64,000 bases of DNA from Sphingomonas sp. SUN019. GTDB lineage: Bacteria > Pseudomonadota > Alphaproteobacteria > Sphingomonadales > Sphingomonadaceae. This document shows, in pieces, positions 44,870-64,000 of the stretch. The notes beneath the pieces are model-generated. The model worked only from the letters and a program-made list of their open reading frames with translations, did no database searches and was not told the origin of the DNA. Each line of letters starts with the position of its first letter. The first letter of the stretch is position 1. Both the position numbers and the translations under genes were made by a program. The stretch is from positions 1,798,001 through 1,862,000 of the forward strand of contig NZ_CP096971.1 of NCBI RefSeq assembly GCF_024758705.1. The letters are read 5' to 3'.

Positions 44870-46172
<1,303 letters not shown>

Positions 46173-46180
46173 ACTTGATG

Positions 46181-46284
46181 AAGCCCCTCCCCTTCAGGGG
46201 AGGGGTTGGGGGTGGGGTTTATCCGCGAGCAGATCGCTTGAGGCGCCACCCCACCCCAACCCCTCCCCTGAAGGGGAGGGGCTT
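46181..46284. repeat. Palindromic repeat between ligB and ligC
   Basis: A 31-bp arm starting AAGCCCCTCCCCTTCAGG at 46181 pairs with an arm ending CCTGAAGGGGAGGGGCTT at 46284, and each arm itself holds a smaller hairpin. It may attenuate the transcript between ligJAB and ligC-pobA. Confidence 0.88.
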
Positions 46285-46298
46285 AGAAAGGAAGAACC

Positions 46299-47246
46299 AT
46301 GACCCTGCGCATTGCGCTCGCCGGCGCCGGCGCGTTCGGCGAGAAGCATCTCGACGGGCTGAAGAACATCGACGGCGTAAAGGTGACCAGCCTCGTCGGA
46401 CGGCGGCTCGAACCGACGCAGGCGATCGCCGCGAAATACGGCATCGGCCACGCCTGCACCGACCTGGCCGACAGCTTGTCGCGCGACGATGTCGATGCGG
46501 TGATCCTGTGCACCCCGACTCAGATGCACGCGGCGCAGACGCTGCAATGCATGGACGCGGGAAAGCACGTGCAGGTCGAAATCCCGCTGGCCGACAGCTT
46601 GGCCGATGCCGAATCTGTGCTGGCGAAGCAGCGGGAGACCGGCCTGGTCTGCATGGTCGGCCACACCCGTCGCTTCAATCCGAGCCATCAGTATCTGCAC
46701 CGGAAGTTCGCCAGCGGCGAGGCGAGCGTGCAGCAGATGGACGTCCAGACCTATTTCTTCCGGCGCAAGAACATGAATGCGAAGGGTGAGGCGCGGTCGT
46801 GGACCGATCACCTGTTGTGGCATCATGCGGCGCATACCGTCGATCTGTTCGCGTATCAGGCCGGGCCCATCGTCGCCGCGAACGCGGTGCAGGGGCCGCT
46901 GCATCCCGATCTCGGCATCGCGATGGATATGTCGATCCAGTTGAAGGCGGAGAGCGGCGCGATCTGCACTTTGTCGCTGTCATTCAACAACGACGGACCG
47001 CTGGGCACGTTCTTCCGCTACATCTGCGACAACGGCACGTGGATCGCGCGCTACGACGATCTGGTGACGGGCAAGGAAGAACCGGTGGACCTGACCGGCG
47101 TCGCCGTGTCTTCGAACGGAATCGAATTGCAGGATCGTGAGTTTATCGCGGCGATCCGCGAGGGACGCGAGCCGAACAGCTCGGTCGCGCAGGTGCTGCC
47201 CTGTTACCGCGTGCTCGATCAGCTGGAGCGGCAGCTTTCGGCGTGA
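46299..47246 (+). CDS. ligC: 4-Carboxy-2-hydroxymuconate-6-semialdehyde dehydrogenase
   Basis: The 315-residue Gfo/Idh/MocA-fold protein equals LigC in length. It has the NADP Rossmann IALAGAGAFGEKHLDGL, VILCTPTQMHA, GHTRRFNPSHQYLHRK, NMNAKGEARSWTDHLLWHHAAHTV (split here; includes the catalytic-region His) and SFNNDGPLGTFFRYI. It oxidises the CHMS hemiacetal to PDC. GGAAG precedes ATG 46299, just past the repeat. pobA overlaps its stop. Confidence 0.96.
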   Translation: MTLRIALAGAGAFGEKHLDGLKNIDGVKVTSLVGRRLEPTQAIAAKYGIGHACTDLADSLSRDDVDAVILCTPTQMHAAQTLQCMDAGKHVQVEIPLADSLADAESVLAKQRETGLVCMVGHTRRFNPSHQYLHRKFASGEASVQQMDVQTYFFRRKNMNAKGEARSWTDHLLWHHAAHTVDLFAYQAGPIVAANAVQGPLHPDLGIAMDMSIQLKAESGAICTLSLSFNNDGPLGTFFRYICDNGTWIARYDDLVTGKEEPVDLTGVAVSSNGIELQDREFIAAIREGREPNSSVAQVLPCYRVLDQLERQLSA

Positions 47247-48424
47247 ATGCGACTTACAAGACGCAGGTCGCGATCGTCGGCGGCGGTCCTGCCGGGCTGC
47301 TGCTCGGCCATCTGCTGCGCGCCGAGGGGATCGATTGCGTGATCGTCGAGCGGCAGACGCGGGCGCACGTTGAAAGTCGGATCAGAGCGGGCGTGCTGGA
47401 GGCGGGCACGACCGATCTGTTGCGCCGGATCGGCATCGACGCGCGGCTGAACGCCGAGGGAATGATCGAGAACGGGCTGAACCTCGGGACGCCGGACGGG
47501 TTGATCCGGATCGACATCAAGGCGCTGACCGGCAACCACGCGACCGTCTATGGCCAGACCGAGGTCACCCGCGACCTGATCGATGCCGCCCCGGCGCGCG
47601 GACTGGAGATCGTGTTCGAGGCGCACGATGTTGCGCTCCACGATGTCGACAGCGCGCAGCCTTCGGTGACCTATACCAAGGACGGCGCGGACCATCGGAT
47701 CGAGGCCGATTTCATCGCCGGGTGCGACGGATCGCACGGCCCGTCGCGCCGAGCGATTCCGGCACACGCGGTGCGCGAATATGCGCGCGATTACCCGTTC
47801 GGCTGGCTCGGCATATTGGCGGATGTGCCGCCGTGCCATGACGAATTGATCTATGCGACCGGCAACGACGGCTTCGCGCTCGCCTCGATGCGTTCACCCA
47901 CGCGCAGCCGTTACTACATCCAGGTTCCGTTGACCGAGCGGCTGGAGGACTGGCCCGCCGATCGTCTGTGGGATGTCCTGGACGCGCGCTTCGCGGGGCT
48001 GGCCAGCCGACCGATCGCGCGCGGGCCGGCGCTGGAGATGTCGATCGCGCCGCTGCGATCGTACGTGTTCGAAGCGATGCATTATGGTCGGCTGTTCCTG
48101 GCCGGGGACGCCGCGCATATCGTGCCGCCGACCGGTGCGAAGGGTCTGAACCTGGCCGCCGCCGACGTCGCCTACCTCGCCGATGCGATGATCGCGCATT
48201 ACCGGCGCGGCGACCAAGCGGGCTTGGACGGGTATCAGACGAAGGCGCTGGCGCGGGTGTGGAAGACCGAGCGGTTCAGCTGGTATCTGACCGAACTGCT
48301 GCATCTTTTCCCCGACCAGGGCGATTTCAAGCGGCGGATGCAGATCGCCGAGCTTGACTACATCGCGGGATCGGAGGCGATGCAGCGCGCGATCGCCGAA
48401 CAATTCGTGGGACTTCCCTTATGA
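47243..48424 (+). CDS. pobA: 4-Hydroxybenzoate 3-monooxygenase
   Basis: The 393-residue class A flavoprotein hydroxylase has GGGPAGLLLGHLL, the second motif GCDGSHGPSRR (DG motif), and GRLFLAGDAAHIVPPTGAKGLNLA for FAD ribityl binding. The length and the ARDYPFGWLGILADVPP block are those of PobA. It makes protocatechuate from 4-hydroxybenzoate with NADPH. The GTG start overlaps the ligC stop by 4 bp, so 4-hydroxybenzoate entry is hard-wired into the ring-cleavage operon. Confidence 0.94.
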   Translation: MNATYKTQVAIVGGGPAGLLLGHLLRAEGIDCVIVERQTRAHVESRIRAGVLEAGTTDLLRRIGIDARLNAEGMIENGLNLGTPDGLIRIDIKALTGNHATVYGQTEVTRDLIDAAPARGLEIVFEAHDVALHDVDSAQPSVTYTKDGADHRIEADFIAGCDGSHGPSRRAIPAHAVREYARDYPFGWLGILADVPPCHDELIYATGNDGFALASMRSPTRSRYYIQVPLTERLEDWPADRLWDVLDARFAGLASRPIARGPALEMSIAPLRSYVFEAMHYGRLFLAGDAAHIVPPTGAKGLNLAAADVAYLADAMIAHYRRGDQAGLDGYQTKALARVWKTERFSWYLTELLHLFPDQGDFKRRMQIAELDYIAGSEAMQRAIAEQFVGLPL

Positions 48425-51613: not shown

Positions 51614-52528
51614 ATGGGCTGGGATGGCAAGGTCGCATTCGTCACGGGCGGGGTTTCCGGCATCGGCTTTGGCATCGCGCGCGCGTTTGCCGCGGCCGGT
51701 ATGCGGCTGATCCTGTCCTATCGCGACGAAACGCACCGGGCCGCTGCCGAACGCTGGTTCGTGGACGCGGGATATGTCGCGCCGGTGTTCGTGAAGCTGG
51801 ACGTGACCGATCGCGCGCGCTTCGCCGAGGTCGCGCACGAGATCGATGCGCGGTTCGGGCGGCTAGACGTGCTGGTGAACAATGCCGGGGTCAGCGTGTT
51901 CGGGCCGACCGACGAGGCCGCCCACGCCGACTATGACTGGATCATGGGCGTGAATTTCGGCGGAGTCGCGAACGGGCTCGTCGCATTGTTGCCGCTGGTG
52001 AAGCGCGGCGGTCCGGGTGGGCACGTCGTCAACGTCGCGTCGATGGCGGCGTATCTGTCGGGACCGCAGGCGGGGATCTATACCGCCAGCAAATTCGCCG
52101 TGCGCGGCCTGACCGAATGCCTGCGCTACAATCTGGCCCCCTATGGCATCGGCTGTTCGCTGATGTGCCCCGGCCTGACGCGCACCAACGCCTGGGACAG
52201 CGCGCTGAAGCGCCCGGACGATTTCGCCGAATCGGGCTTTGCGGCGGTCGATCGCGCCGAGCTGGAGACGTTCGGCGCGGCGTTCGACGCTGGAATGGAC
52301 CCGTTCGAGGTGGGCGGAAAGACGCTGGCGGGCATGACCCGCAACGACGCGGTGATCTTCACCCATCCCGAATTCGCCGAGGATTTCCGCGAGATCTACG
52401 ACGCCAGCATCGCAGCGCTGCCCGACGAACCGGTGCCCGAAGGCCGCCAGGAGATCGAACGCCTGCGCCGCGCCGCCGCCCGCGACGCCGCGGCGGGCAA
52501 GGCGATCGGGCTGGCTGATCTGATCTAG
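51614..52528 (+). CDS. SDR oxidoreductase, LigD/LigL-like
   Basis: The 304-residue SDR has VAFVTGGVSGIGFGIA, NNAGVSVFGPTDE, GVNFGGVANGLVALLP, Ser in NVASMAAYLSG and YTASK. It is a close relative of the SDR at 27136-28038, sharing ASKFAVRGL/TTKFAVRGM and the FTHPEFAEDF/FSHPEFRDEL tail. Oxidation of the benzylic alcohol of a lignin dimer is the expected role. It is divergent from a candidate formaldehyde lyase and ends in a 4-bp overlap with the CmcJ/NvfI-type gene. Confidence 0.8.
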   Translation: MGWDGKVAFVTGGVSGIGFGIARAFAAAGMRLILSYRDETHRAAAERWFVDAGYVAPVFVKLDVTDRARFAEVAHEIDARFGRLDVLVNNAGVSVFGPTDEAAHADYDWIMGVNFGGVANGLVALLPLVKRGGPGGHVVNVASMAAYLSGPQAGIYTASKFAVRGLTECLRYNLAPYGIGCSLMCPGLTRTNAWDSALKRPDDFAESGFAAVDRAELETFGAAFDAGMDPFEVGGKTLAGMTRNDAVIFTHPEFAEDFREIYDASIAALPDEPVPEGRQEIERLRRAAARDAAAGKAIGLADLI

Positions 52529-53547: not shown

Positions 53548-56070
53548 ATGCACGATATTGTCCACACGCGGCGGATCGCGCGCTTGCTGGCGTCAGCCTC
53601 GGCCGCGGGCCTGGCGATGGCGACGCCGGCGCTGGCGCAGGACCAGACGCCACCCGCCACAATCACACCGCCCACCGCCCCGCCCACCACAGCGGCGCAA
53701 GGACCGGAGGGGGCGGAGTTCGGCGCGACGCAGGATATCGTCGTCACCGCGCAGTTCCGTCAACAGAAGCTGCAAGACATCCCGATCGCGATCACCGCGG
53801 TCAATTCGGCCGAGCTGGAGGCGAAGAACCAGACCAATCTGGCGCAAGTCGCGGACAATGCCCCGAACGTGTCGCTGAAGCCGCAGGGCGCGTCGTTCGG
53901 ACCGTCGGTCGTCGCGTCGATCCGCGGCGTCGGGCAGAACGATTTCAACCCGGCGTACGAACCCGGCGTCGGCATCTACATCGACGACGTCTATTACCCG
54001 CAATTGACCGGCGCGGTGTTCGACCTCCTCGACCTCGACCGCGTCGAAATCCTGCGCGGGCCGCAGGGCACGCTGGCGGGGCGCAATTCCGAAGGCGGCG
54101 CGATCAAGCTGTATTCGAAGAAGCCGACCGGCGAGGGCGGCGGCTTCGTCGAGGTGAGCTATGGTTCGCGCAACCGCATCGGCGTGCGCGGCGCGGCCGA
54201 TTTCAAAATCACCGACACGCTGTTCGGCCGTATCTCAGGCGTGGCCAAGCAGCAGGAGGGCTTCGTCGACCGGATCGATTTCGGTTGCGCCAACCCGTCG
54301 AGCGGCATCCCCGCGACGCAATCGGGCGGCGACTGCACGATCAGCAAGCTGGGCGGCATCGGCTATCAGGCGATCCGCGGCATCCTGCGCTGGCAGCCGA
54401 CCGACGCGCTGGAGGTGAACGTCATCGGCGATTATACGCATGACGAACATACGATCGCGGGCGAAGTGCTGCTGGCGACATCGCCGATCAATTCGCCGAA
54501 CGTGAACCCCGTGCCTGGCGTGCCGTATGACGATCGCTTCCTCTGCGGGCGGTTCTGCAACTACATCACCACCGGCCAGCCTGCGGCGACATGGGTGCCC
54601 CCGATCCCGGTCGACCCGCTGGGCGCAGCGGGCACGCCGCTGGCGGCGACGACCGGCAACGATCGCAGCCTGTACGACGGCTGGGGCGTGTCGGGGCAGA
54701 TCAACTATCAGGTGAACGACACGATCGCGCTGACATCGATCACCGGATACCGCGAGTTCGATACGCGGTTCGATTCGGATGACGATCTGTCGCCAGCCAA
54801 TGTCGGGTTCGGCAAGAACCATCTGACCAACTGGAGCTTCAGCCAGGAGTTGCGCGCCAACGCGCAGCTAACCGATGCGCTGAACCTGACGATCGGGGCC
54901 TATTACTTCAAGCAGGAGTCGCTCTACGATTCGCTGCAGGACATCCGCTACGTGCCGGTGTTTCCGCTGCAGTTTCGCCAGCCGGACCCCACAAAGGCCG
55001 ACGCGAAGGCCGTCTTCGCACAGGCGTCGTTCAACCCGTTCGAGGGGTTCACGCTCAGCGGCGGGCTGCGCTACACTGACGAATCCAAGGATCAGCAATA
55101 TTTCCGCCTGAACCTGGACGGCACGGTCAACCGCTTCCTCGATCCCGTCGGCGCGGTGTACGGCGTCGGTTATTCCGGGCCGGATACGCAGGGGTTGTTC
55201 GGCGGCGGGACGGTCACCGCGCTGTCCGGGCTGATCGCGAAATACAGTGCGAAGCGGGTCGATTACCGGCTGGCGGCAGATTATCGCTTCTCGCCCGAAC
55301 TGCTGGTGTACGCGTCGTTCTCGACCGGGTTCAAGGGCGGCGGTTCGAACCCGCGGCCGTTCAACGCGCAACAGGTGATCCCGTTCGCGCCGGAACAGCT
55401 GAATGCGTATGAAGTCGGGCTGAAGAGCGACTTTTTCGACCGGAAGGCCCGTTTCAACCTGTCGGCGTTCATCAACGACTATAAGGATATCCAGATTCCG
55501 GTCAGCACCTGTCCGGGCGCGCCGTGCGCGGCGCGGCTGAATGCGGGCGAGGGCCAGATCAAGGGGTTCGAGGCCGAATTGTCGGTGTTCCCGGTGCCGG
55601 GCCTCGCGATCGACGCGTCGCTCAGCTATCTGACGTTCAAATACAACGCCGACAGCCTGAACCCGTCGGCGACATTCCCGACCAATCCAGGCGGCGTGGT
55701 GGCGAACGATCCGCCGACCGTGCCGCCGTGGAAGTTCGGCCTGGGCGCGCAGTACAAGGCCGATCTGGGCAATGCGGGCAGCATCACGCCGCGCTTCGAC
55801 GTCAATTACCAGGACAAGCAATATACCGGGCCGACCGTGCTGAACGGCACGCGCATCCGCAACTTCATCCCGGCCTATACGCTGGTCAATGCGCGGCTGA
55901 CGTGGACAAATGCGAACGAGGATCTCGACATCTCGCTGGAGGCGCTGAACCTGCTCGACAAATATTATCTGCTGACGATTTTCGACCTGCGCGGCGCGGG
56001 CGCGGGGTTCCGCAAAGGGCGCCCGGGCAGCCCGCAGGAGTTCGCGCTGACCGTGAAGAAGAAGTTCTGA
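53548..56070 (+). CDS. TonB-dependent outer-membrane receptor
   Basis: The 840-residue protein has a signal peptide ending ALA before residue 32, a proline-rich spacer, TonB-box-like QDIVVTAQ and a plug domain (QDIPIAITAV, RGVGQNDFNPAYEPGVGIYID, EILRGPQGTLAGRNSEGGAIK). A beta-barrel follows, ending in the aromatic KKKF. Sphingomonads use such receptors for lignin-derived biaryls, for example DdvT. GGGGAGGAG precedes the ATG. It heads the co-directional GST-GST-ligase-PQQ gene run, which suggests it imports that pathway's substrate. Confidence 0.88.
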   Translation: MHDIVHTRRIARLLASASAAGLAMATPALAQDQTPPATITPPTAPPTTAAQGPEGAEFGATQDIVVTAQFRQQKLQDIPIAITAVNSAELEAKNQTNLAQVADNAPNVSLKPQGASFGPSVVASIRGVGQNDFNPAYEPGVGIYIDDVYYPQLTGAVFDLLDLDRVEILRGPQGTLAGRNSEGGAIKLYSKKPTGEGGGFVEVSYGSRNRIGVRGAADFKITDTLFGRISGVAKQQEGFVDRIDFGCANPSSGIPATQSGGDCTISKLGGIGYQAIRGILRWQPTDALEVNVIGDYTHDEHTIAGEVLLATSPINSPNVNPVPGVPYDDRFLCGRFCNYITTGQPAATWVPPIPVDPLGAAGTPLAATTGNDRSLYDGWGVSGQINYQVNDTIALTSITGYREFDTRFDSDDDLSPANVGFGKNHLTNWSFSQELRANAQLTDALNLTIGAYYFKQESLYDSLQDIRYVPVFPLQFRQPDPTKADAKAVFAQASFNPFEGFTLSGGLRYTDESKDQQYFRLNLDGTVNRFLDPVGAVYGVGYSGPDTQGLFGGGTVTALSGLIAKYSAKRVDYRLAADYRFSPELLVYASFSTGFKGGGSNPRPFNAQQVIPFAPEQLNAYEVGLKSDFFDRKARFNLSAFINDYKDIQIPVSTCPGAPCAARLNAGEGQIKGFEAELSVFPVPGLAIDASLSYLTFKYNADSLNPSATFPTNPGGVVANDPPTVPPWKFGLGAQYKADLGNAGSITPRFDVNYQDKQYTGPTVLNGTRIRNFIPAYTLVNARLTWTNANEDLDISLEALNLLDKYYLLTIFDLRGAGAGFRKGRPGSPQEFALTVKKKF

Positions 56071-56088
56071 CCACGTTTTAGGGGGCGC

Positions 56089-56118
56089 GGCGGGAATGGC
56101 CTGACGGCTGTTCCCGCC
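56089..56118. terminator. Hairpin after the TonB receptor gene
   Basis: GGCGGGAA (56089-56096) pairs with TTCCCGCC (56111-56118) across a 14-nt loop in the 73-bp gap before the first GST gene. With no U-run after it, partial termination or mRNA stabilisation is more likely than a full stop. Confidence 0.5.
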
Positions 56119-56143
56119 CTGCCCACCCCCGAGGAAATACCGC

Positions 56144-56920
56144 ATGACCGACACCGACCGCGTAACGCTCTATCACTGGGAGCCGAACGCCAATTCGGGC
56201 AAGCCGATGCTGACCCTATTCGAGAAGGGCGTCGCGTTCGACAGCCACTATCTCGATCTGCTGGCCTTCGATCAGCACAAGCCCGAGTATCTGGCGGTCA
56301 ACCCACTCGGCACGATCCCGGCGATGACGCACGGTGACCTGGTGCTGACCGAATCGACCGCGATCATGGAATATGTCGACGAGGCGTTCGCGGGTCCGAA
56401 GCTTATGCCCGAGGATCCGGTCGACGCATGGCGCGTGCGCTGGTGGATGAAGTTCATGGACCAGTGGCTCGCCCCCAGCTTCTCGATGATCGGGTGGAGC
56501 GTGTTCGTCGGGCCATCGGTGCGGCAGCGCGACCCGGCTGAGCTCGACGCCGCGATCGAACGCATCCCGATGCCCGAGCGCCGTGTGGCGTGGCGGAAAG
56601 CGATCAGCGGCGCGTTCTCGGCCGAGGAAATGGCGGAATCGCAGCGCCGCGTGGCGATCGGCATCGGGTTTCTGGAGGAGGCGCTGGGGAAGCGCGAATG
56701 GCTGGCGTCGGACAGCTACAGTCTGGCCGACATCAACGGCTTCAACCTCGGCTATGCGCTGCCGCTGTCGCAGCCGCACCTGTCGAACGACGATCTGACC
56801 CCGAACATCATGCGCTGGCTGCGCGCGATCTACGCCCGGCCCGCGACGCGCGCGTGCTGGGCGATGGGGCGCACCGACATGGCGAAGCGCGTCAGCATCC
56901 TGGAAAGCGAAGCCGCATGA
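56144..56920 (+). CDS. Glutathione S-transferase, LigF-type beta-etherase candidate
   Basis: The 258-residue protein has the thioredoxin-fold half with PNANSGKP (Ser/Asn pair at the LigF GSH-activating position), cis-Pro in GTIPAMTHGD and the GSH gamma-Glu motif LTESTAIMEYVDEAF. The helical C-half has SYSLADINGFNLG. LigF-type enzymes displace the beta-aryl group of lignin beta-ketoethers with GSH. The insert-bearing length (257 in LigF) fits. It overlaps the next GST by 4 bp. Confidence 0.78.
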   Translation: MTDTDRVTLYHWEPNANSGKPMLTLFEKGVAFDSHYLDLLAFDQHKPEYLAVNPLGTIPAMTHGDLVLTESTAIMEYVDEAFAGPKLMPEDPVDAWRVRWWMKFMDQWLAPSFSMIGWSVFVGPSVRQRDPAELDAAIERIPMPERRVAWRKAISGAFSAEEMAESQRRVAIGIGFLEEALGKREWLASDSYSLADINGFNLGYALPLSQPHLSNDDLTPNIMRWLRAIYARPATRACWAMGRTDMAKRVSILESEAA

Positions 56921-57666
56921 ACGGCATCCTGTATCACGGCGAACCGAACGGGCCGTCGCTGACCGTGCTGGCGGCGGCGTTCGAAAAGGGTGTCGAGTTG
57001 ACGCTGGAGCGGATCGATCTGGTCGCGGGCGAACGCCACGGCGCGCGGGCGCCGCATGCGTTCGAGGTCGAACAGTCGATCGAGGGCGAAGGGCCGGTGC
57101 TGGTGGTGGACGGCGTCGCGATGGCGGACAGCGTGTTCGTCGCCTGCTATCTCGACGATACCGGCGACGGACCCGCGCTGCGGCCGGCTGATCCCTATGC
57201 GCGGTGGCAGGCGATGGCGTGGTGCCGCTACGTGATCGAACGCATCGCGCCCGCCGCATCGTATCTGGGGCTGAGCGCCGCGCCGCCGGCCGCGGTTCCA
57301 GCGGGAATCGCGAGCCAGGATCTGGCCGATCGCTGGCGCGAGGCGGTGGAGGGGCGGTTCGACGCCGCCAAGCTGGACGACAGCCGGGCGAAGATCGCGC
57401 AAGGGGTCGAGAAGGTCGAGGCGCAACTGGCCGACGGGCGCGCGTGGCTGATGGGCGATTTCGGGATTGCCGATCTGGAAAGCTACTCTTGGCTGGCGGG
57501 AATGCCCGCGCTGCACCCGGATGCCTTCGCCGACAGACCGCGCACCGCGGCGTGGCTCGATCGCGTGAGGACGAGGCCGTCGGTCTCGCGCGCGCTGGCG
57601 CTGGCGACCGTCGCCGAACCGTCCGCGGTGTGGGCGCCGGGGCCTGAAATCAACCGCTGGGGTTAG
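56917..57666 (+). CDS. Divergent glutathione S-transferase
   Basis: The 249-residue protein keeps GST order: a start YHGEPNGPSLTVLAAAFEKG, cis-Pro in GEGPVLVVDG, MADSVFVACYLDD where ES is DS, and a helical domain ending ADLESYSWLAGMPALHPDAF. It is weakly conserved against its neighbour, lacks the ANS pair and has a long insert rich in Ala/Pro. It may be the partner of a heterodimer or the glutathione-removing step. It overlaps the preceding GST gene by 4 bp. Confidence 0.7.
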   Translation: MNGILYHGEPNGPSLTVLAAAFEKGVELTLERIDLVAGERHGARAPHAFEVEQSIEGEGPVLVVDGVAMADSVFVACYLDDTGDGPALRPADPYARWQAMAWCRYVIERIAPAASYLGLSAAPPAAVPAGIASQDLADRWREAVEGRFDAAKLDDSRAKIAQGVEKVEAQLADGRAWLMGDFGIADLESYSWLAGMPALHPDAFADRPRTAAWLDRVRTRPSVSRALALATVAEPSAVWAPGPEINRWG

Positions 57667-57675
57667 GACGACAGG

Positions 57676-59238
57676 ATGCGATCGATCGACTATTTCGACC
57701 GCGGGCATGACCGCGATCCGGCCCATACCGCGCTGGTCGATGTCGCCAGCGGGGAGCGGCACACGTTCGCCGAGGTCAGGGCACGCACCGTGGCGATCGC
57801 GGCGGCGATGTACGCGTCGGGGTTCCGGAACCAGCAGTCGGTCGCGCTGTACGGCCCAAACAGCGCGGCGATCATGATCGCATTGCTCGCGATCTGGCGC
57901 GCCAACGGGCGCTGGGTGCCGGTCAACACGCGCAACGCGATCGACGCCAATGCGGCCTATCTGTCCTACGTGCGGTGCGGGTGGATGTTCTATCATTCGA
58001 GCATGGCGGAGGATGTCGCGGCGCTTAGGGCGCGGACCGCGACGCTGACGCATTTCGTATGTCTGGACCGGCGGATGGGCGACGATCCGTCGCTGGACGA
58101 GTTCGTCGCCGCCGCACCGCACGCGACGCTGCCCGATTTCTCCGATCCGTTCGGCGCGCCGGACGATGTCGTCGGGCTGTTCCCGACCGGCGGGACGACC
58201 GGACCGTCGAAGGGGGTGGTCGTCACCAACCTGGGCTGGAGCACGATGCTGGAGACGCTGGGCGAGGCGGTCGGGCGCGGCGTGTCCGATCCTGTATCTC
58301 TGGTGGTCGCACCGATCACCCATGCCGCGGGGCCTGTCGCGCTCGGCACGATGGCGCTGGGTGCGACACAGGTGATCCTGCCGGGCTTCGACGCCGACCG
58401 CGTGCTGCGCACGATCGCCGAACACCGCGTGACGCACATGTATCTGCCGCCGACCGCGCTGTACGGCCTGCTCGGCTCGCCCGAACTGGGGCGGCAGGAC
58501 GTGTCGTCGCTGCGCTATTTCATCCTGGTCGGATCGCCCGTGTCGCCCGAAAAGCTGCGCCAGGCGGTCGAGGCGTTCGGGCCGTGCATGTGCCAGGCGT
58601 ATGGTCAGGTCGAATCGCCGATGATCACGACGTGGCTGACCCCCGAGGTGGTCGCGGCGGCGGCGGCGGGCGACCATCCCGAGCGGCTGGCGAGTTGCGG
58701 AAAACCGACCCGATCGGTGCAGGTCGGGATCATGGACGACGACGGCAATCTGCTGCCTGATGGCGAACGCGGCGAGATCGTGGTGCGCGGCGTGCTGGTG
58801 TCGAAGGAGTATTTCGAGCTGCCCGACGCGACGGCGGAGGCGCGCGCATTCGGCTGGCACCATACCGGCGACGTCGCCTATCGCGACGAGCATGGCTTCC
58901 TGTTCATCGTCGATCGCAAGAAGGACATGGTGGTAACCGGCGGCTTCAACGTCTTCACCGCCGAGGTCGAGGCGGCGGTGACCGAATTGGCGCAGGTCCG
59001 CGAATGCGCGGTGATCGGCGTGCCGCACGAGAAATGGGGCGAGCAGGTCCATGCGGTCGTCGTTGCCGACGGGATCGACGACGCAACGATCATCGCGCAC
59101 GCCAAGGCGCGGCTGGGCGGCGTGAAGGCGCCGAAGAGCGTCGCCTTCGTCGCCTCCATCCCGCGCACCGCGGCGGGCAAGATGGACAAGAAGGCGCTGC
59201 GAGCCGACCATTGGCGCGGCGACCGGCTGGTGAATTGA
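57676..59238 (+). CDS. AMP-forming acyl-CoA synthetase
   Basis: The 520-residue ANL-superfamily ligase has P-loop FPTGGTTGPSKGVV, the A5-like QAYGQVESP, the adenylate motif WHHTGDVAYRDEHGF, hinge DRKKDMVVTGGFNV and C-terminal Lys region PRTAAGKMDKKALR. It activates a carboxylic acid, perhaps an aromatic or phenylpropanoid acid released in this pathway. It is 9 bp after the second GST gene and 10 bp before the PQQ dehydrogenase gene, so it is in the same operon. Confidence 0.85.
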   Translation: MRSIDYFDRGHDRDPAHTALVDVASGERHTFAEVRARTVAIAAAMYASGFRNQQSVALYGPNSAAIMIALLAIWRANGRWVPVNTRNAIDANAAYLSYVRCGWMFYHSSMAEDVAALRARTATLTHFVCLDRRMGDDPSLDEFVAAAPHATLPDFSDPFGAPDDVVGLFPTGGTTGPSKGVVVTNLGWSTMLETLGEAVGRGVSDPVSLVVAPITHAAGPVALGTMALGATQVILPGFDADRVLRTIAEHRVTHMYLPPTALYGLLGSPELGRQDVSSLRYFILVGSPVSPEKLRQAVEAFGPCMCQAYGQVESPMITTWLTPEVVAAAAAGDHPERLASCGKPTRSVQVGIMDDDGNLLPDGERGEIVVRGVLVSKEYFELPDATAEARAFGWHHTGDVAYRDEHGFLFIVDRKKDMVVTGGFNVFTAEVEAAVTELAQVRECAVIGVPHEKWGEQVHAVVVADGIDDATIIAHAKARLGGVKAPKSVAFVASIPRTAAGKMDKKALRADHWRGDRLVN

Positions 59239-59248
59239 AAGAGCATAT

Positions 59249-61393
59249 ATGACGAAGTCGCAAGGTTGGCTGGTCCTGTTGGCGGGGGCCGCGTTCGCGC
59301 TGAGCGCGTGCAGTGCGGCGACCGGTTCGGACAGCGCCCCGACAGCGGGCGGGGTAGACGCGGCGCGCATCGCGGCTGCGGCGCCGGGCGAATGGCTGTC
59401 GACCGGGCGTACCTATGACGAGCAACGCTTCAGTCCGCTGGAAAAGTTGAACCAGTCCAATGTCGCGGGGCTCGGGCTCGCCTGGTTCGCCGATCTCGAC
59501 ACCGCGCGCGGGCAGGAAGCGACGCCGCTGATGATCGACGGCGTGCTCTATGTCTCGACCGCATGGAGCATGGTGAAGGCGTATGACGCGCGCACGGGCA
59601 AACCGCTCTGGTCCTACGACCCGCAGGTGCCGCGCGAGACATTGGTCAAGGCGTGCTGCGATGCGGTCAACCGCGGCGTCGCGGCGTGGGGCGACCGGCT
59701 GTTCGTCGGCACGCTCGACGGCCGCCTGATCGCGCTCGATCGCCGGACGGGAAAGCCGGTGTGGAGTGTCGTCACGCTCGACCAGAAGGGCAATGGCACG
59801 ATCACCGGCGCGCCGCGCGTCATCAACGGCATGGTGATGATCGGCAACGGCGGCGCGGAGTTCGGCGCGCGCGGCTATGTCACCGCATACGATGCCGCGA
59901 CCGGCAAGCAACGCTGGCGATTCTACACCGTCCCCGCGCAGCCGGGAAAGGAGAACGAACCCGCGTATCTGAAGACCGCGGCGCAGACCTGGGCCGGCGA
60001 ATGGTGGAAGCAGGGCGGCGGTGGCACGGTGTGGGACGCCATGGCGTATGACCCTGCACTCGACCTGTTGTACATCGGGGTCGGCAACGGCAGTCCGTGG
60101 AACCATCTGTACCGCTCGCAGGGCAAGGGCGACAATTTGTACCTTTCGTCGATCGTCGCGATCCACGCGAAGACCGGCGACTATGCCTGGCATTACCAGA
60201 CGACGCCCGGCGACAGCTGGGACTTCACCGCCACGCAGCACATCATCCTGGCCGATGTGACGATCGACGGGAAACCGCGCAAGGTGCTGATGCAGGCGCC
60301 GAAGAACGGATTCTTCTATGTACTCGACCGGACCGACGGGAAGCTGATCTCGGCGAAGAACTTCGTGCCGACGAACTGGGCGACCGACATCGACATGAAG
60401 ACCGGGCGACCGATCGAGACGCCGGAAGCGCGTTACTACAAGACCGGCAAGCCGTTCATCGGATCGCCCGGTGCGACCGGTGCGCATAGCTGGCACCCGA
60501 TGGCGTTCGATCCGAAATCGGGGCTGGTGTTCATCCCCGCCAACCTCGCCGCTTTCCCGTACATCCCCGATCCGGCGTGGAAGCCCGCCAAGCTCGGCTT
60601 CAACGTCGGCGTCGACATGGGCAAGGCGGCGATGCCCGCGATCCCCGCCGTCCGCAACGGCGCGCTGGCGGCGACGACCGGCGCGCTGATCGCGTGGGAT
60701 CCGGTCGCGCAGAAGGAGCGTTGGCGCGTGTCCTACAAGGGGCCGTGGAATGGCGGACTGCTGGCGACCGGCGGCGGCGTCGTGTTTCAGGGCAATGCGA
60801 CGGGCGAATTCGCCGCTTATGCCACGGCCGACGGGCGGAAACTCTGGTCGTTCCCCGCCCAGACCGGCGTGGTCGCCGCGCCGATCAGCTATGAACTGGA
60901 CGGTGAGCAATATGTCGCGGTGCTGGCGGGCTGGGGCGGCGTGTGGGCGCTCGCGCCGGGCGTACTGATCGACAAGAGCGGCCCGGCGCGCAACATCAGC
61001 CGGCTGCTGGTGTTCAAGGTCGGCGGCAAGGCGACACTGCCCCCCGCCCCGCCGCTGGAAAAGCTAACGCTCGATCCACCCGCCTCCACCGCGACGCCGC
61101 AGGTGATCGCTGCGGGGGGCGAGCGGTTCGGTCGCTTCTGCGGCGCGTGCCACGGCGACGCCGCGGTCGGCGGCAGCCTGGTCCCCGATCTGCGCCGCAG
61201 CGGGGCGCTGAACGACGCGGCGACGTGGCAGCAGATCGTCCACGGCGGGGCGCTGAAGGACAATGGCATGGTCAGTTTCGCGCCGGTGATGAGCGCGGAC
61301 GCGATCGAGACCGTCCGCCAGTATGTCATCGCGCGCGCGAACGAGGACAAGGCGCTGGAGCAAGGCGGCGGCGCCGTCAGGAAGGCGAAGTAA
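59249..61393 (+). CDS. PQQ-dependent quinohemoprotein alcohol dehydrogenase
   Basis: The 714-residue protein has an 8-bladed PQQ propeller and a C-terminal cytochrome c (CGACHGD, then Met in NGMVSFAPVMS). Vicinal cysteines in VKACCDAVNRG form the PQQ disulfide. Catalytic Asp lies in DSWDFTATQ; the position two residues on is Thr, so it looks calcium- not lanthanide-type. The N-terminus has a lipobox LSAC with C21, so it may be a periplasmic lipoprotein. It would oxidise an alcohol in the periplasm, plausibly the side chain of lignin oligomers. Overlaps the amidohydrolase by one base. Confidence 0.87.
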   Translation: MTKSQGWLVLLAGAAFALSACSAATGSDSAPTAGGVDAARIAAAAPGEWLSTGRTYDEQRFSPLEKLNQSNVAGLGLAWFADLDTARGQEATPLMIDGVLYVSTAWSMVKAYDARTGKPLWSYDPQVPRETLVKACCDAVNRGVAAWGDRLFVGTLDGRLIALDRRTGKPVWSVVTLDQKGNGTITGAPRVINGMVMIGNGGAEFGARGYVTAYDAATGKQRWRFYTVPAQPGKENEPAYLKTAAQTWAGEWWKQGGGGTVWDAMAYDPALDLLYIGVGNGSPWNHLYRSQGKGDNLYLSSIVAIHAKTGDYAWHYQTTPGDSWDFTATQHIILADVTIDGKPRKVLMQAPKNGFFYVLDRTDGKLISAKNFVPTNWATDIDMKTGRPIETPEARYYKTGKPFIGSPGATGAHSWHPMAFDPKSGLVFIPANLAAFPYIPDPAWKPAKLGFNVGVDMGKAAMPAIPAVRNGALAATTGALIAWDPVAQKERWRVSYKGPWNGGLLATGGGVVFQGNATGEFAAYATADGRKLWSFPAQTGVVAAPISYELDGEQYVAVLAGWGGVWALAPGVLIDKSGPARNISRLLVFKVGGKATLPPAPPLEKLTLDPPASTATPQVIAAGGERFGRFCGACHGDAAVGGSLVPDLRRSGALNDAATWQQIVHGGALKDNGMVSFAPVMSADAIETVRQYVIARANEDKALEQGGGAVRKAK

Positions 61394-62265
61394 TGCCGAT
61401 CGATCCCAACAAGGTCGTCGCGATCGACGTCCACGTCCATGCCGAGGTGTCGTGCCACGATCCCGAAGATCCGGTAATGGCGAAATATTTCGACGCTGCA
61501 TCGGCCTATTTCAAGGCCGACCGGAAACGCCCGACGATCCCCGAGACGATCGACTATTATCGCGAACGCAACATCGCCTTCTGCCTGTTCACGGTCGATG
61601 CCGAATGCGGCATGGGAACGAAACGGATCAGCAATTACGAGGTGGCGGACATCGCCGCCGAGCATGACGATATCGTGATCCCGTTCGCGTCGATCGATCC
61701 GCACAAGGGCAAATTGGGTGCGCGAGAGGCGCGCGACCTGGTCGAGAATCACGGGGTGAAGGGCTTCAAATTCCATGGCATCGCGCAGAACGCGCATCCC
61801 GCCGATCGCATGGCGTATCCGATCTACGAAGTGATCGCGGAATATAAGCTGCCCGCGATCTTCCACACCGGCCATTCGGGGATGGGCACGGGAATGCCGG
61901 GCGGCGGCGGGCTGCGGCTGAAATATGGGCAGCCGATGCTGATCGACGATGTCGCGGTCGATTTCCCCGACATGAAGTTCATCCTGGCGCATCCGAGCTG
62001 GCCGTGGACCGACGAAAGCCTGTCGATGGCGCTGCACAAGGACAATGTGTACATTGACCTCAGCGGCTGGTCGCCCAAATATTTCCCGAAGCAGGTGATC
62101 CAATACGCCAACACGCAACTGAAGCATAAGATGATGTTCGGCAGCGACTGGCCGCTGATCCGCCCCGAAAAATGGATCGACGCGGCGAAAGAAGCGGGCT
62201 TTCGCGACGAGGTGCTGCCGCTGATCATGAAGGACAATGCGGTGAAGCTGCTGGGGTTGGGGTGA
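61393..62265 (+). CDS. Amidohydrolase-2 family enzyme (ACMSD/LigW-like fold)
   Basis: The 290-residue protein has IDVHVHAE (metal HxH), GFKFHGIAQN, the metal His in IFHTGHSG, LAHPSWPW and the metal Asp in MFGSDWPLI. The family includes decarboxylases, hydratases and lactonases of aromatic pathways. It lies in the PQQ-dehydrogenase operon. A decarboxylation or hydrolysis after ligase action is possible. No closer match to LigW or LigI is seen. Confidence 0.82.
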   Translation: MPIDPNKVVAIDVHVHAEVSCHDPEDPVMAKYFDAASAYFKADRKRPTIPETIDYYRERNIAFCLFTVDAECGMGTKRISNYEVADIAAEHDDIVIPFASIDPHKGKLGAREARDLVENHGVKGFKFHGIAQNAHPADRMAYPIYEVIAEYKLPAIFHTGHSGMGTGMPGGGGLRLKYGQPMLIDDVAVDFPDMKFILAHPSWPWTDESLSMALHKDNVYIDLSGWSPKYFPKQVIQYANTQLKHKMMFGSDWPLIRPEKWIDAAKEAGFRDEVLPLIMKDNAVKLLGLG

Positions 62266-62280
62266 GCGCGCTTTTCGGCG

Positions 62281-62400
62281 ATCCTCCCCTGCAAGGGGAG
62301 GTGGCAGCCCGGAGGGCTGACGGAGGGGTGTCGCCCTATCCGGATACCGGGACACCCCTCCGTATCGCTGCGCGAGCCACCTCCCCTTGCAGGGGAGGAT
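62281..62400. repeat. Palindromic repeat before the SDR gene
   Basis: A 25-bp arm starting ATCCTCCCCTGCAAGGGGAG (62281-62305) and an arm ending CTTGCAGGGGAGGAT (62376-62400) are perfect inverted copies. The final GGGGAGGAT lies 5 bp before the next ATG and so doubles as its ribosome binding site. Confidence 0.88.
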
Positions 62401-62404
62401 TCAG

Positions 62405-63154
62405 ATGAGCGATTTCACCGGGCATCACATCGTCGTCACCGGCGCGTCGTCGGGGATCGGGCGCGCGACCGCGCTGCTGCTGGCGAGCCGGGGCGCAAAA
62501 ATGTCGTTGATCGCGCGGCGTGCTGAGACGCTGGCGGCAGTGCGCGAATTGGCGGGCGGCGAAACGTTCGCCGCACCCGCCGACGTATCCGACCGCGCGG
62601 CGTTACTCGGCGCGATCGACGCGGCGGAGGCGGCGTTGGGCCCGATCGACGGCCTGTTCGCCAACGCCGGGACGGGCGGCACGTTCGCCGCCTTTACCGA
62701 ATACGACGATGCGGTGTTCGAAGACGTTCTGCGCACCAACCTGCTCTCCCCGTTCTGGGCGATGAAGCGCGTCTTGCCCGGCATGATCGAACGACGCCGC
62801 GGCGCGATTCTGGTTACCGGCAGTCTGGCGAGCGAGCGCGGGATGGCGCGCAATCCGGGCTATGTCGCGTCGAAGCACGGCGTGCTGGGCCTTGCCCGCG
62901 CAGCCGCGCTGGAAGTCGCGCCGCACGGTGTTCGCGTCAACTGCATCGTGCCCGGCTTTGTAGAAACCGAGATGCTCGCGAACATCCCCTACGAAGCCCG
63001 CGCGACGATGGCGGCGCGGGTGCCGCAACGCCGTACCGGCAGCGCGGAGGAAGTCGCGGAGGTCGCGGCCTTCATGTTGTCCGACGCCGCCGCGCACGTC
63101 ACCGGCCAGTCCTGGGCGGTCGATGGCGGCATCCTGAATACGCTGACCGTCTGA
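62405..63154 (+). CDS. SDR oxidoreductase
   Basis: The 249-residue classical SDR has VVTGASSGIGRATALL, NAGTGGTF, Ser in VTGSLASERG, YVASK, and the family tail AAHVTGQSWAVDGG. It is less related to LigD than the two other SDRs. It is followed after 11 bp by a LigF-type GST, so it may make the ketone on which the GST acts. Its Shine-Dalgarno comes from the palindromic repeat. Confidence 0.85.
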   Translation: MSDFTGHHIVVTGASSGIGRATALLLASRGAKMSLIARRAETLAAVRELAGGETFAAPADVSDRAALLGAIDAAEAALGPIDGLFANAGTGGTFAAFTEYDDAVFEDVLRTNLLSPFWAMKRVLPGMIERRRGAILVTGSLASERGMARNPGYVASKHGVLGLARAAALEVAPHGVRVNCIVPGFVETEMLANIPYEARATMAARVPQRRTGSAEEVAEVAAFMLSDAAAHVTGQSWAVDGGILNTLTV

Positions 63155-63165
63155 AGGGCTGCGCC

Positions 63166-63930
63166 ATGACGCTGAAATACTATCACGCCGAACCGCTCGC
63201 CAATTCGCTGAAGTCGATGGCGCCGCTGTTCGAAAAGGGGCTGGCGTTCGAGAGCGTGTACGTGAACCTGCACAAGTTCGAACAGCACGAACCGTGGTTC
63301 GTCGCGATCAATCCCGAGGGACAGGTGCCCGTGCTGGACCACGACGGCGCGATCATCACGCAGACGACCGTCATCAACGAATATCTCGAAGACGCCTTTC
63401 CCGACACGCCGCCGCTGCGACCCGCCACGCCGGAGGGCAAGGCGCGGATGCGATATTGGAACAAGTTCGTCGACGAACACGTGATGAACCACGTGTCGAT
63501 GCATGGCTGGCACCGAATGGTCGGCGTCATCGCGCGAGGGATCGAAAGCGGCGCGTTCGAGGAGATCATGGCGCGCATTCCGTTGCCCGATCAGCGCGCG
63601 AAGTGGAAGGCGGCGCGATCGGGCTTTTCCGACGAGCAACTGGCGCACGCGACCGGGAAGATCGACTATGCGCTGGACAAGGTCGAGGCGCAGCTTTCGC
63701 GAACGTCTTGGCTGGCGGGTGACGACTACACGCTAGCCGACATCAATTTCTATGCGCATTGCGGGATGATGGTGGAGCGGATGTTCCCCGACCTGAACGT
63801 CGCCGCGCGTTTTCCGCGGCTAATCGACTGGCGCGACCGCGTGACCGCACGGCCCGCGATGCAGCAGGCGCTCGCGATGCCGGACCACACCGAACCGGGG
63901 CTGCGGACGTGGTCGGGCGAGGTGCGTTAA
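63166..63930 (+). CDS. Glutathione S-transferase, LigF-type beta-etherase candidate
   Basis: The 254-residue protein resembles LigF at its N-terminus: LKYYHAEPLANSLKSMAPLFEKGLAFE has the ANSLK pair and EKGL(A/E)FE, then LHKFEQHEPWFVAINPEGQVPVLDHDG with cis-Pro. GSH motif is ITQTTVINEYLED (ES replaced by QT). The C-half contains WNKFVDEHVMNHVSMHGW, IPLPDQRAKWKAARSGF and YTLADINFYAH. A beta-etherase role is likely. Its end overlaps a convergent VOC gene by 4 bp. Confidence 0.82.
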   Translation: MTLKYYHAEPLANSLKSMAPLFEKGLAFESVYVNLHKFEQHEPWFVAINPEGQVPVLDHDGAIITQTTVINEYLEDAFPDTPPLRPATPEGKARMRYWNKFVDEHVMNHVSMHGWHRMVGVIARGIESGAFEEIMARIPLPDQRAKWKAARSGFSDEQLAHATGKIDYALDKVEAQLSRTSWLAGDDYTLADINFYAHCGMMVERMFPDLNVAARFPRLIDWRDRVTARPAMQQALAMPDHTEPGLRTWSGEVR

Positions 63931-64000
63931 CCGCCAAAGAAATTCAGTTCCAGCAGCACGCCGTCGGGATCGGTGACGAAGATCTGCCGCAGGCCCGCGG
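63927..64000 (-). CDS. C-terminal end of a VOC/glyoxalase-fold protein (partial)
   Basis: On the minus strand the frame ends LRQIFVTDPDGVLLELNFFGG and stop. DPDGxxLEL is the closing signature of vicinal-oxygen-chelate proteins, with the metal Glu in LEL. The rest lies outside the window. It could be a lactoylglutathione-lyase-like partner of the GST or an unrelated VOC enzyme. Confidence 0.7.
   Translation of the reverse strand, partial: AGLRQIFVTDPDGVLLELNFFGG

Follow-up and report, generated by a model that had tools for sequence, protein, structure and literature searches.

The window analysed here comprises 64,000 nucleotides of Sphingomonas sp. SUN019 (contig NZ_CP096971.1, positions 1,798,001 to 1,862,000; host genome 3.81 Mb, one contig). 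Between positions 53548 and 63930 it carries eight + strand genes encoding a TonB-dependent receptor, two glutathione S-transferases (GSTs), an AMP-forming CoA ligase, a pyrroloquinoline quinone (PQQ)-cytochrome c alcohol dehydrogenase, an amidohydrolase, a short-chain dehydrogenase (SDR) and a third GST. With somewhat better than even confidence, these genes were taken to represent a conserved operon, found mostly in sphingomonads, that links ether cleavage of beta-O-4 dimers with breakdown of the three-carbon (C3) side chain. The window would thus hold a variant of the known beta-aryl-ether pathway. By sequence, the first and second GST are orthologous to BaeAB, a heterodimeric beta(R)-etherase already published, and the new part is the company of baeAB: the CoA ligase, the PQQ-cytochrome c alcohol dehydrogenase and the amidohydrolase. 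A preliminary description of the window had proposed a beta-aryl-ether catabolic operon, which was borne out. Its further claim of an undescribed etherase system was rejected, the GST pair having been published as BaeAB (PMC6369299). Papers are cited here by PMC number for those of their passages that were available.

BaeA and BaeB of the window were 85% and 72% identical, respectively, to the pair at locus L028 of Sphingobium xenophagum NBRC 107872 (loci in other genomes carry L numbers). This is the strain assayed in PMC6369299, and the assayed accessions were placed at L028 by strain and gene order. Its BaeAB cleaves beta(R)-2-methoxyphenoxy-hydroxypropiovanillone (MPHPV) (PMC6369299). Identities between L028 and L083 (Novosphingobium subterraneum) were 70.2% for A and 54.7% for B, close to the 70% and 52% published for S. 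xenophagum and N. aromaticivorans BaeA and BaeB (PMC6369299). In the window, baeA lies directly upstream of baeB and overlaps it by 4 nt at 56917-56920. An Asn residue is critical for BaeA activity (PMC6369299); the pattern expected of the pair is Asn plus Ser in A and Ser alone in B, and the window copies carried Asn/Ser in baeA and Pro/Ser in baeB. Among aligned rows, Asn was present in 98/99 A rows, the exception being a second-copy row (L089_GSTA_10763); in its place, 92/92 B rows had Pro (75) or Ala (17). The Ser beside this position was conserved across all A and B rows. When identical rows were counted once, Asn was found in 86/87 A rows and 35/35 third-GST rows and was absent from 81/81 B rows. 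Retention of Asn in A and its loss in B agrees with the published division into catalytic and partner subunits. A quick GST tree of 234 rows (208 different) was also made, with some risk of spurious joining of the long outgroup rows. A single branch (support 99-100) set apart each of three groups, B, third-GST and LigF-like, from all other rows, and the A group (98 rows in one clade) required two changes solely because L089_GSTA_10763 sits beside B. The window BaeAB is predicted to act as a heterodimer on beta(R)-MPHPV, cleaving its ether bond. Published baeAB is induced approximately 3-fold by guaiacylglycerol-beta-guaiacyl ether (GGE), and the presence of baeAB and ligF2 in one gene cluster had already been noted (PMC6369299).

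The third GST gave LigF as its best PDB match (E 2.5e-57), retained Asn-Ser in 37/37 rows and formed a clade of its own. The LigF-like protein encoded elsewhere in this genome fell in a separate clade and shared 46% identity with it. For NaLigF2 (Saro_2865) of N. aromaticivorans, PMC6369299 gives in vitro characterisation as a beta(S)-etherase, and the same protein is named DesD in later papers (PMC8091115, PMC12997858). The third GST is described here as LigF2-type, a putative beta(S)-etherase or ring-cleavage isomerase. Approximately 8 kb past it, outside the window (L002:782-3177), a LigF-like and a LigG-like gene stand in tandem on the + strand with a Nu-like GST divergent on the minus strand, so that the genome has two GST loci for this chemistry. 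The gene with best PDB matches to 4g10/4yap/4yav (394 bits) is presumably LigG-like, and a GST outside the window that is close to disulfide-bond oxidoreductases is one that we take to be Nu-like.

The amidohydrolase, for which the preliminary description offered no role, is the most informative gene of the operon. It was 61% identical to a plasmid protein of Pseudomonas putida YC-AE1 (L122), whose neighbours encode an acetoacetate-CoA ligase, biotin carboxylase parts and a HAD hydrolase; read from these neighbours, L122 is an hpe-like operon. Identity was 55% to another plasmid protein, at L121, annotated as 4-hydroxyphenyl-beta-ketoacyl-CoA hydrolase, which lies beside feruloyl-CoA synthase and enoyl-CoA hydratase genes (cou-like), and 56% to a relative in the cou-like operon L123. 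A Rhodococcus opacus relative (L120), followed by genes for an AMP-binding protein, an SDR and a MaoC dehydratase, was 51% identical. The His/Asp motifs were conserved over the full length of the 7 aligned amidohydrolases. CouO, of the amidohydrolase superfamily, catalyses the final reaction of side-chain removal, from which an aromatic acid results (PMC4737184); both CouO and HpeF act at this last stage, on an aryl-beta-ketoacyl-CoA (PMC4737184, PMC9618137). The window protein is proposed to be an aryl-beta-ketoacyl-CoA hydrolase of the HpeF/CouO kind, CouO and HpeF themselves having been compared by description. The ligase is proposed to be a vanilloylacetate (beta-keto acid) CoA ligase.

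The PQQ enzyme matched TIGR03075 with 631.6 bits and gave 1kv9 as its best PDB match (785 bits). It has the PQQ propeller, C-terminal cytochrome c and vicinal Cys pair of a type II quinohemoprotein, together with a single CxxCH haem site (CGACH) and an LSAC lipobox, from which a periplasmic location would follow.

Conservation of the neighbourhood was assessed at named baeA loci, which were the best 80 of 142 from one scan and therefore lean to close relatives. Genes at these loci were called by tblastn with fixed distance and identity rules. The loci were mostly from sphingomonads, with a few from Gammaproteobacteria-labelled metagenome-assembled genomes (MAGs), Hyphomonadaceae and Parvularcula. 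The second GST followed the first immediately in 76/80. Downstream counts were taken from the 60 loci whose downstream sequence reached 9.5 kb or more, the 20 shorter loci being left out. On the same strand, baeB was found in 59, the PQQ gene in 48, the amidohydrolase in 48 and the ligase in 38. Together with the baeA/baeB adjacency, these counts are beyond chance. The SDR was found in 28, an aldehyde dehydrogenase (ALDH) gene in 25, the third GST in 24 and a Nu-like GST in 5. At least one of ligase, PQQ gene and amidohydrolase stood beside baeAB in 55 of the 60, and 31 had a receptor match (at least 40% identity) no more than 6 kb upstream of baeA. The fullest set was found at L032, where receptor (approximately 4.7 kb upstream of baeA), baeA, baeB, ligase, PQQ gene, Nu-like GST, ALDH, amidohydrolase, SDR and LigF2-type GST share one strand.

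Independently, 149 genomes of the family were drawn, one of them the window's own, and searched at thresholds of at least 59% identity for baeA, E of 1e-60 or lower for the amidohydrolase and at least 58% identity for the ligase. Among the other 148, baeA was present in 13, the amidohydrolase in 26 and the ligase in 7. The amidohydrolase was found in 12/13 genomes with baeA versus 14/135 without (Fisher p 7.8e-10), and the ligase in 6/13 versus 1/135 (p 8.7e-7), shared ancestry being ignored in both tests. baeA and the amidohydrolase lay within 10 kb on one contig in 10 of 12 genomes, the other two assemblies being fragmented, and baeA and the ligase were close together in 4 of the 6 genomes having both. 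At the 14 amidohydrolase loci of genomes without baeA, a same-strand PQQ gene lay within 5.1 kb in 8, with an ALDH gene between the two in 7; the SDR and third GST were present in 6. Three of the 14, one of them on a 6.6-kb contig, had no PQQ gene, ALDH, SDR or third GST alongside. This linkage outside baeA loci indicates that PQQ, ALDH and amidohydrolase genes form a unit of their own. Eight of the best 10 PQQ matches in other genomes were located within amidohydrolase loci. At L053 and L054, from Marinicaulis flavus and a Parvularcula MAG, baeAB was found with no adjacent ligase or amidohydrolase and with a PQQ gene several kb upstream.

The gene order at L083 was baeA, baeB, ligase, PQQ, ALDH, amidohydrolase, a 153-aa frame, SDR and third GST. 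Counting down from Saro_2873 along this order places the PQQ gene at Saro_2870, the ALDH at Saro_2869 and the GST/LigF2 at Saro_2865, which agrees with published annotations; the correspondence of Saro tags rests on L083 gene order. From that order it is inferred that N. aromaticivorans has the same operon; no protein named for this species was found among the best 120 protein-search matches. Upstream of baeA at L083 (L083:4600-9742) lie a PQQ paralogue, a VAO-type flavoprotein-like frame (assigned by eye) and a cytochrome-like frame, which resemble the published Saro_2875-2877 (pinVWX) order beside Saro_2873.

The proposed pathway would run as follows. Dimers would be taken up, perhaps via the TonB receptor, and oxidised at C-alpha to MPHPV by nearby-encoded SDRs that resemble C-alpha-dehydrogenases. 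BaeAB would then cleave beta(R)-MPHPV in a glutathione-dependent reaction, as published for its orthologues, and cleavage of the beta(S) form would fall to either the LigF2-type GST or the LigF-like protein encoded apart from it. Glutathione would be removed by a Nu-like or LigG-like GST, class names that are in part our assumption. The primary alcohol of the released hydroxypropiovanillone (HPV) would be oxidised in the periplasm by the PQQ-cytochrome c dehydrogenase, giving vanilloyl acetaldehyde, which an ALDH would convert to vanilloyl acetate; in many relatives an ALDH gene lies between the PQQ gene and the amidohydrolase. The AMP-forming ligase would form the CoA thioester, and the HpeF/CouO-type amidohydrolase would release vanillate and acetyl-CoA, as homology and context suggest. 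Nearby LigM and extradiol ring-cleavage genes, recognised by family matches, could complete catabolism. The non-GST steps, those of the PQQ enzyme, ligase and amidohydrolase, are inferred from sequence.

Several observations weigh against this pathway. Against the ligases at L121, L122 and L123 the window ligase gave no match at 1e-10, and it was just 27% identical to the Rhodococcus ligase (L120), so that a ligase of hpe or cou type was rejected. Only the amidohydrolase then ties the operon to the hpe and cou systems; confidence in the pathway was lowered slightly for this reason, and that in the mixed-operon account below was raised slightly. No ALDH gene is present in the window's operon. 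Among the 60 loci, ligase, PQQ gene and amidohydrolase were all missing from 5, and 12 had no amidohydrolase within 9.5 kb. PQQ dehydrogenases are common, with a match at E 1e-150 in 98/149 family genomes, and the idea that PQQ genes as such are specific to the operon was rejected. For the receptor, a review states that transporters are not implicated for such uncharged dimers (PMC12997858, in the passages available). An intergenic repeat described below may split the operon. In N. aromaticivorans, Saro_2870, by gene order the counterpart of the window's PQQ gene, is called a putative PQQ-dependent ALDH; supplied with PQQ, it was assayed against dehydrodiconiferyl compounds, and it is absent from the active alcohol dehydrogenases (ADHs) and ALDHs given in the available part of PMC11323797. 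HPV oxidation there is attributed to HpvY, a predicted choline dehydrogenase 39% identical to HpvZ, and an hpvY deletion in an evolved strain gave no growth on HPV in minimal medium (PMC11837543). The PQQ enzyme of that species was thus insufficient under those conditions, which counts against the pathway unless the enzyme was without its cofactor.

The order of steps was considered separately. According to the preliminary description, the periplasmic PQQ enzyme would oxidise the gamma-alcohol of the intact dimer, followed by GST cleavage and CoA activation. An enzyme of lipoprotein type, carrying a lipobox, would indeed meet imported dimers first, and the receptor gene lies directly upstream. 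BaeAB orthologues, however, cleave MPHPV with its gamma-alcohol intact (PMC6369299), so that prior oxidation is not needed and the order is reversed here, with cleavage first; the set of PQQ gene, ALDH and amidohydrolase also occurs without baeA in 7/14 of the loci described above. Oxidation of the released monomer fits better than oxidation of the dimer, and the preliminary order was considered very unlikely. A different account would make the operon a mixed one, in which BaeAB is an etherase, the amidohydrolase, SDR and third GST (as a DesD isomerase) serve another aromatic route and the PQQ enzyme acts on other aromatic alcohols. The DesD name given to Saro_2865 (PMC8091115, PMC12997858), the persistence of amidohydrolase, SDR and third GST as a group in 6/14 loci without baeA, and the presence downstream of LigM and an alpha/beta hydrolase-like gene (labelled by eye) are in its favour. 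It is countered by the in vitro beta(S)-etherase listing of NaLigF2 (PMC6369299) and by co-occurrence of ligase and amidohydrolase with baeA far above background. This account was judged rather doubtful, though it deserves to be taken seriously.

The receptor might instead import PQQ rather than lignin fragments, as a partner of the PQQ dehydrogenase. A profile search found no pqqC match in the host genome. The search itself works, since the pqqC model scored above cut-off in 3/149 family genomes and below cut-off in a fourth; none of the 13 baeA genomes was among these four. Of the named baeA loci, 37 genomes were examined (completeness not given), and 35 had no pqqC match, the positives being L025 (S. 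limneticum) and L027 (S. cupriresistens). A pqqE search of the host returned one protein at 61.8 bits (cut-off 381.35), with a model that also matches all 14 controls, so that this result carries little weight. No PQQ-synthesis gene having been found in the host, the cofactor may be scavenged; a PQQ dehydrogenase without pqqC is, though, common in the family and not special to this operon, and PQQ scavenging may be a family rule (enzyme in 98/149, pqqC in 3/149). Receptor matches also lay on the PQQ strand, no farther than approximately 7 kb from the amidohydrolase, in 5/8 baeA-negative loci with a PQQ gene. Against this, the receptor scored 22.9 bits on the PqqU model (cut-off 1200) and other host receptors scored higher, the best stretch reaching 64.4. 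Identity with PqqU was rejected, and PQQ import by this receptor was kept as an unlikely candidate role. The best-scoring paralogue of the receptor in its own genome was 35% identical over residues 9-457, and shorter pieces of others reached 44%. Nothing useful on PQQ auxotrophy in sphingomonads was found in the literature among the matches listed. In one baeA genome a PQQ gene match (G111:C1:2944892-2947012) contains two in-frame stops (TAG, TAA).

A further, improbable idea is that the proposed pathway is cofactor-gated: bacteria mostly without PQQ synthesis would use a PQQ-type HPV dehydrogenase, and full use of beta-O-4 dimers would need PQQ from neighbours. HPV or phenylpropanone accumulates in pure cultures of N. 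aromaticivorans (PMC11837543) and of Novosphingobium MBES04. Were the idea true, this build-up would be an artefact of PQQ-free medium. The etherase step is well known, and the fate of the C3 monomer in N. aromaticivorans is unsettled; enzymes after vanilloyl acetate there remain to be discovered according to a 2025 paper (PMC11837543). The operon offers candidates for these steps, conserved beside the etherase, and a simple cofactor test of the cause of HPV accumulation, which is of direct relevance to engineered lignin funnelling.

Positions of the features are collected in the table. The eight genes were confirmed in the order first claimed, by open reading frames and domains; a gene labelled VOC and claimed as a same-strand member was ruled out, since it is encoded on the minus strand, where it converges on the third GST and extends past the end of the window. 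It matched no NCBIfam family at 1e-20. Spacings of 4 to 11 bp had been described, and these hold for GST/ligase (9 nt), ligase/PQQ gene (10 nt) and SDR/third GST (11 nt), but not for receptor/baeA (73 nt), amidohydrolase/SDR (139 nt) or the two overlaps, the second of which (PQQ gene/amidohydrolase) is 1 nt. The amidohydrolase/SDR gap contains mirror-image GC-rich arms and may be a mobile intergenic repeat or an attenuator. A scan for promoters and terminators did no better than shuffles (promoter-like 2 versus a mean of 1.6; terminator-like 5 versus 6.2).

Table. Features of the operon and its immediate surroundings, in window coordinates.
Feature	Position	Strand	Basis or remark
TonB-dependent receptor	53548..56070	+	plug and beta-barrel domains; candidate substrates aromatic dimer or PQQ
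baeA, catalytic subunit of BaeAB beta(R)-etherase	56144..56920	+	85% to L028 copy; Asn-Ser motif
baeB, BaeAB partner subunit	56917..57666	+	72% to L028 copy; Pro at catalytic Asn position
AMP-forming acyl-CoA ligase, proposed vanilloylacetate (beta-keto acid) CoA ligase	57676..59238	+	PF00501/PF13193
Type II quinohemoprotein alcohol dehydrogenase (PQQ and cytochrome c), proposed HPV gamma-alcohol dehydrogenase	59249..61393	+	TIGR03075, 1kv9
Amidohydro_2 protein of HpeF/CouO kind, proposed aryl-beta-ketoacyl-CoA hydrolase	61393..62265	+	PF04909
Intergenic inverted repeat, 139 nt, in the amidohydrolase/SDR gap	62266..62404	.	sequence inspection
Short-chain dehydrogenase (SDR), FabG-like	62405..63154	+	PF13561/PF00106
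Third GST, LigF2-type (NaLigF2/DesD position), putative beta(S)-etherase or ring-cleavage isomerase	63166..63930	+	best PDB match LigF
Convergent gene labelled VOC in the preliminary description, outside operon	63927..64000, on to ~64349 (L001:11927-12349)	-	gene position

The operon SDR had no PDB match at 1e-40 and was 33% identical to the 3-hydroxyacyl-CoA dehydrogenase of the cou-like L121. Another SDR, at window positions 51614-52528, strongly matched C-alpha dehydrogenases of solved structure (4ya6, 4yae, 4y98), and a C-alpha-dehydrogenase-like SDR outside the window matched 4ya6 with 354 bits. Upstream on the same strand (45276-48424) lie genes for an extradiol dioxygenase beta subunit (531.8 bits, cut-off 317), a Gfo/Idh-type dehydrogenase and PobA (577 bits, cut-off 538.7). 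The Gfo/Idh-type protein gave just weak matches to inositol dehydrogenase models and is presumably LigC. The downstream LigM gene, outside the window, scored 925.7 bits (cut-off 580).

Among known systems, the BaeAB cluster of N. aromaticivorans (Saro_2873/2872, Saro_2865) is alike in its GST pair, the overlap, the residue pattern and a LigF2-type GST downstream. Its order being taken via L083, it differs from the window, where a receptor gene immediately precedes the GST pair and the PQQ gene is followed by the amidohydrolase without an intervening ALDH. Saro_2869 is active on a dimer aldehyde (PMC11323797), and no published beta-O-4 role was found for the non-GST members of that cluster. The preliminary description knew of no pathway linking PQQ oxidation and CoA activation to etherases. 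This stands in part: in open-licence literature, no published role in beta-ether catabolism was found, among the matches listed, for a PQQ dehydrogenase or for this CoA ligase. A CoA step downstream of etherases has, however, been described in SYK-6, by VceA/VceB (PMC11837543, PMC9618137), which are called analogous, not homologous, to HpeE/HpeF (PMC9618137); N. aromaticivorans has no VceA/VceB homologues according to the available passages of PMC11837543.

The SYK-6 pathway (LigD/L/N/O, LigE/F/P, LigG/Q, HpvZ, ALDH, VceA, VceB) performs the same GGE to vanillate chemistry, with the CoA step after side-chain oxidation (PMC11837543). Compared by description, the PQQ-cytochrome c dehydrogenase would here replace HpvZ, and the ligase with the HpeF/CouO-like amidohydrolase would replace VceA/VceB. 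Uptake may be likened, again by description, to that by DdvT of SYK-6, a TonB-type receptor through which a lignin aromatic, dehydrodivanillate, crosses the outer membrane (PMC6874591, PMC12997858). The hpe (acetovanillone) and cou (hydroxycinnamate) operons likewise use a CoA ligase and an amidohydrolase acting on aryl-beta-ketoacyl-CoA, although the window ligase is not close to theirs. Those operons are fed by carboxylation or beta-oxidation, whereas here the beta-keto acid would come from the oxidised etherase product.

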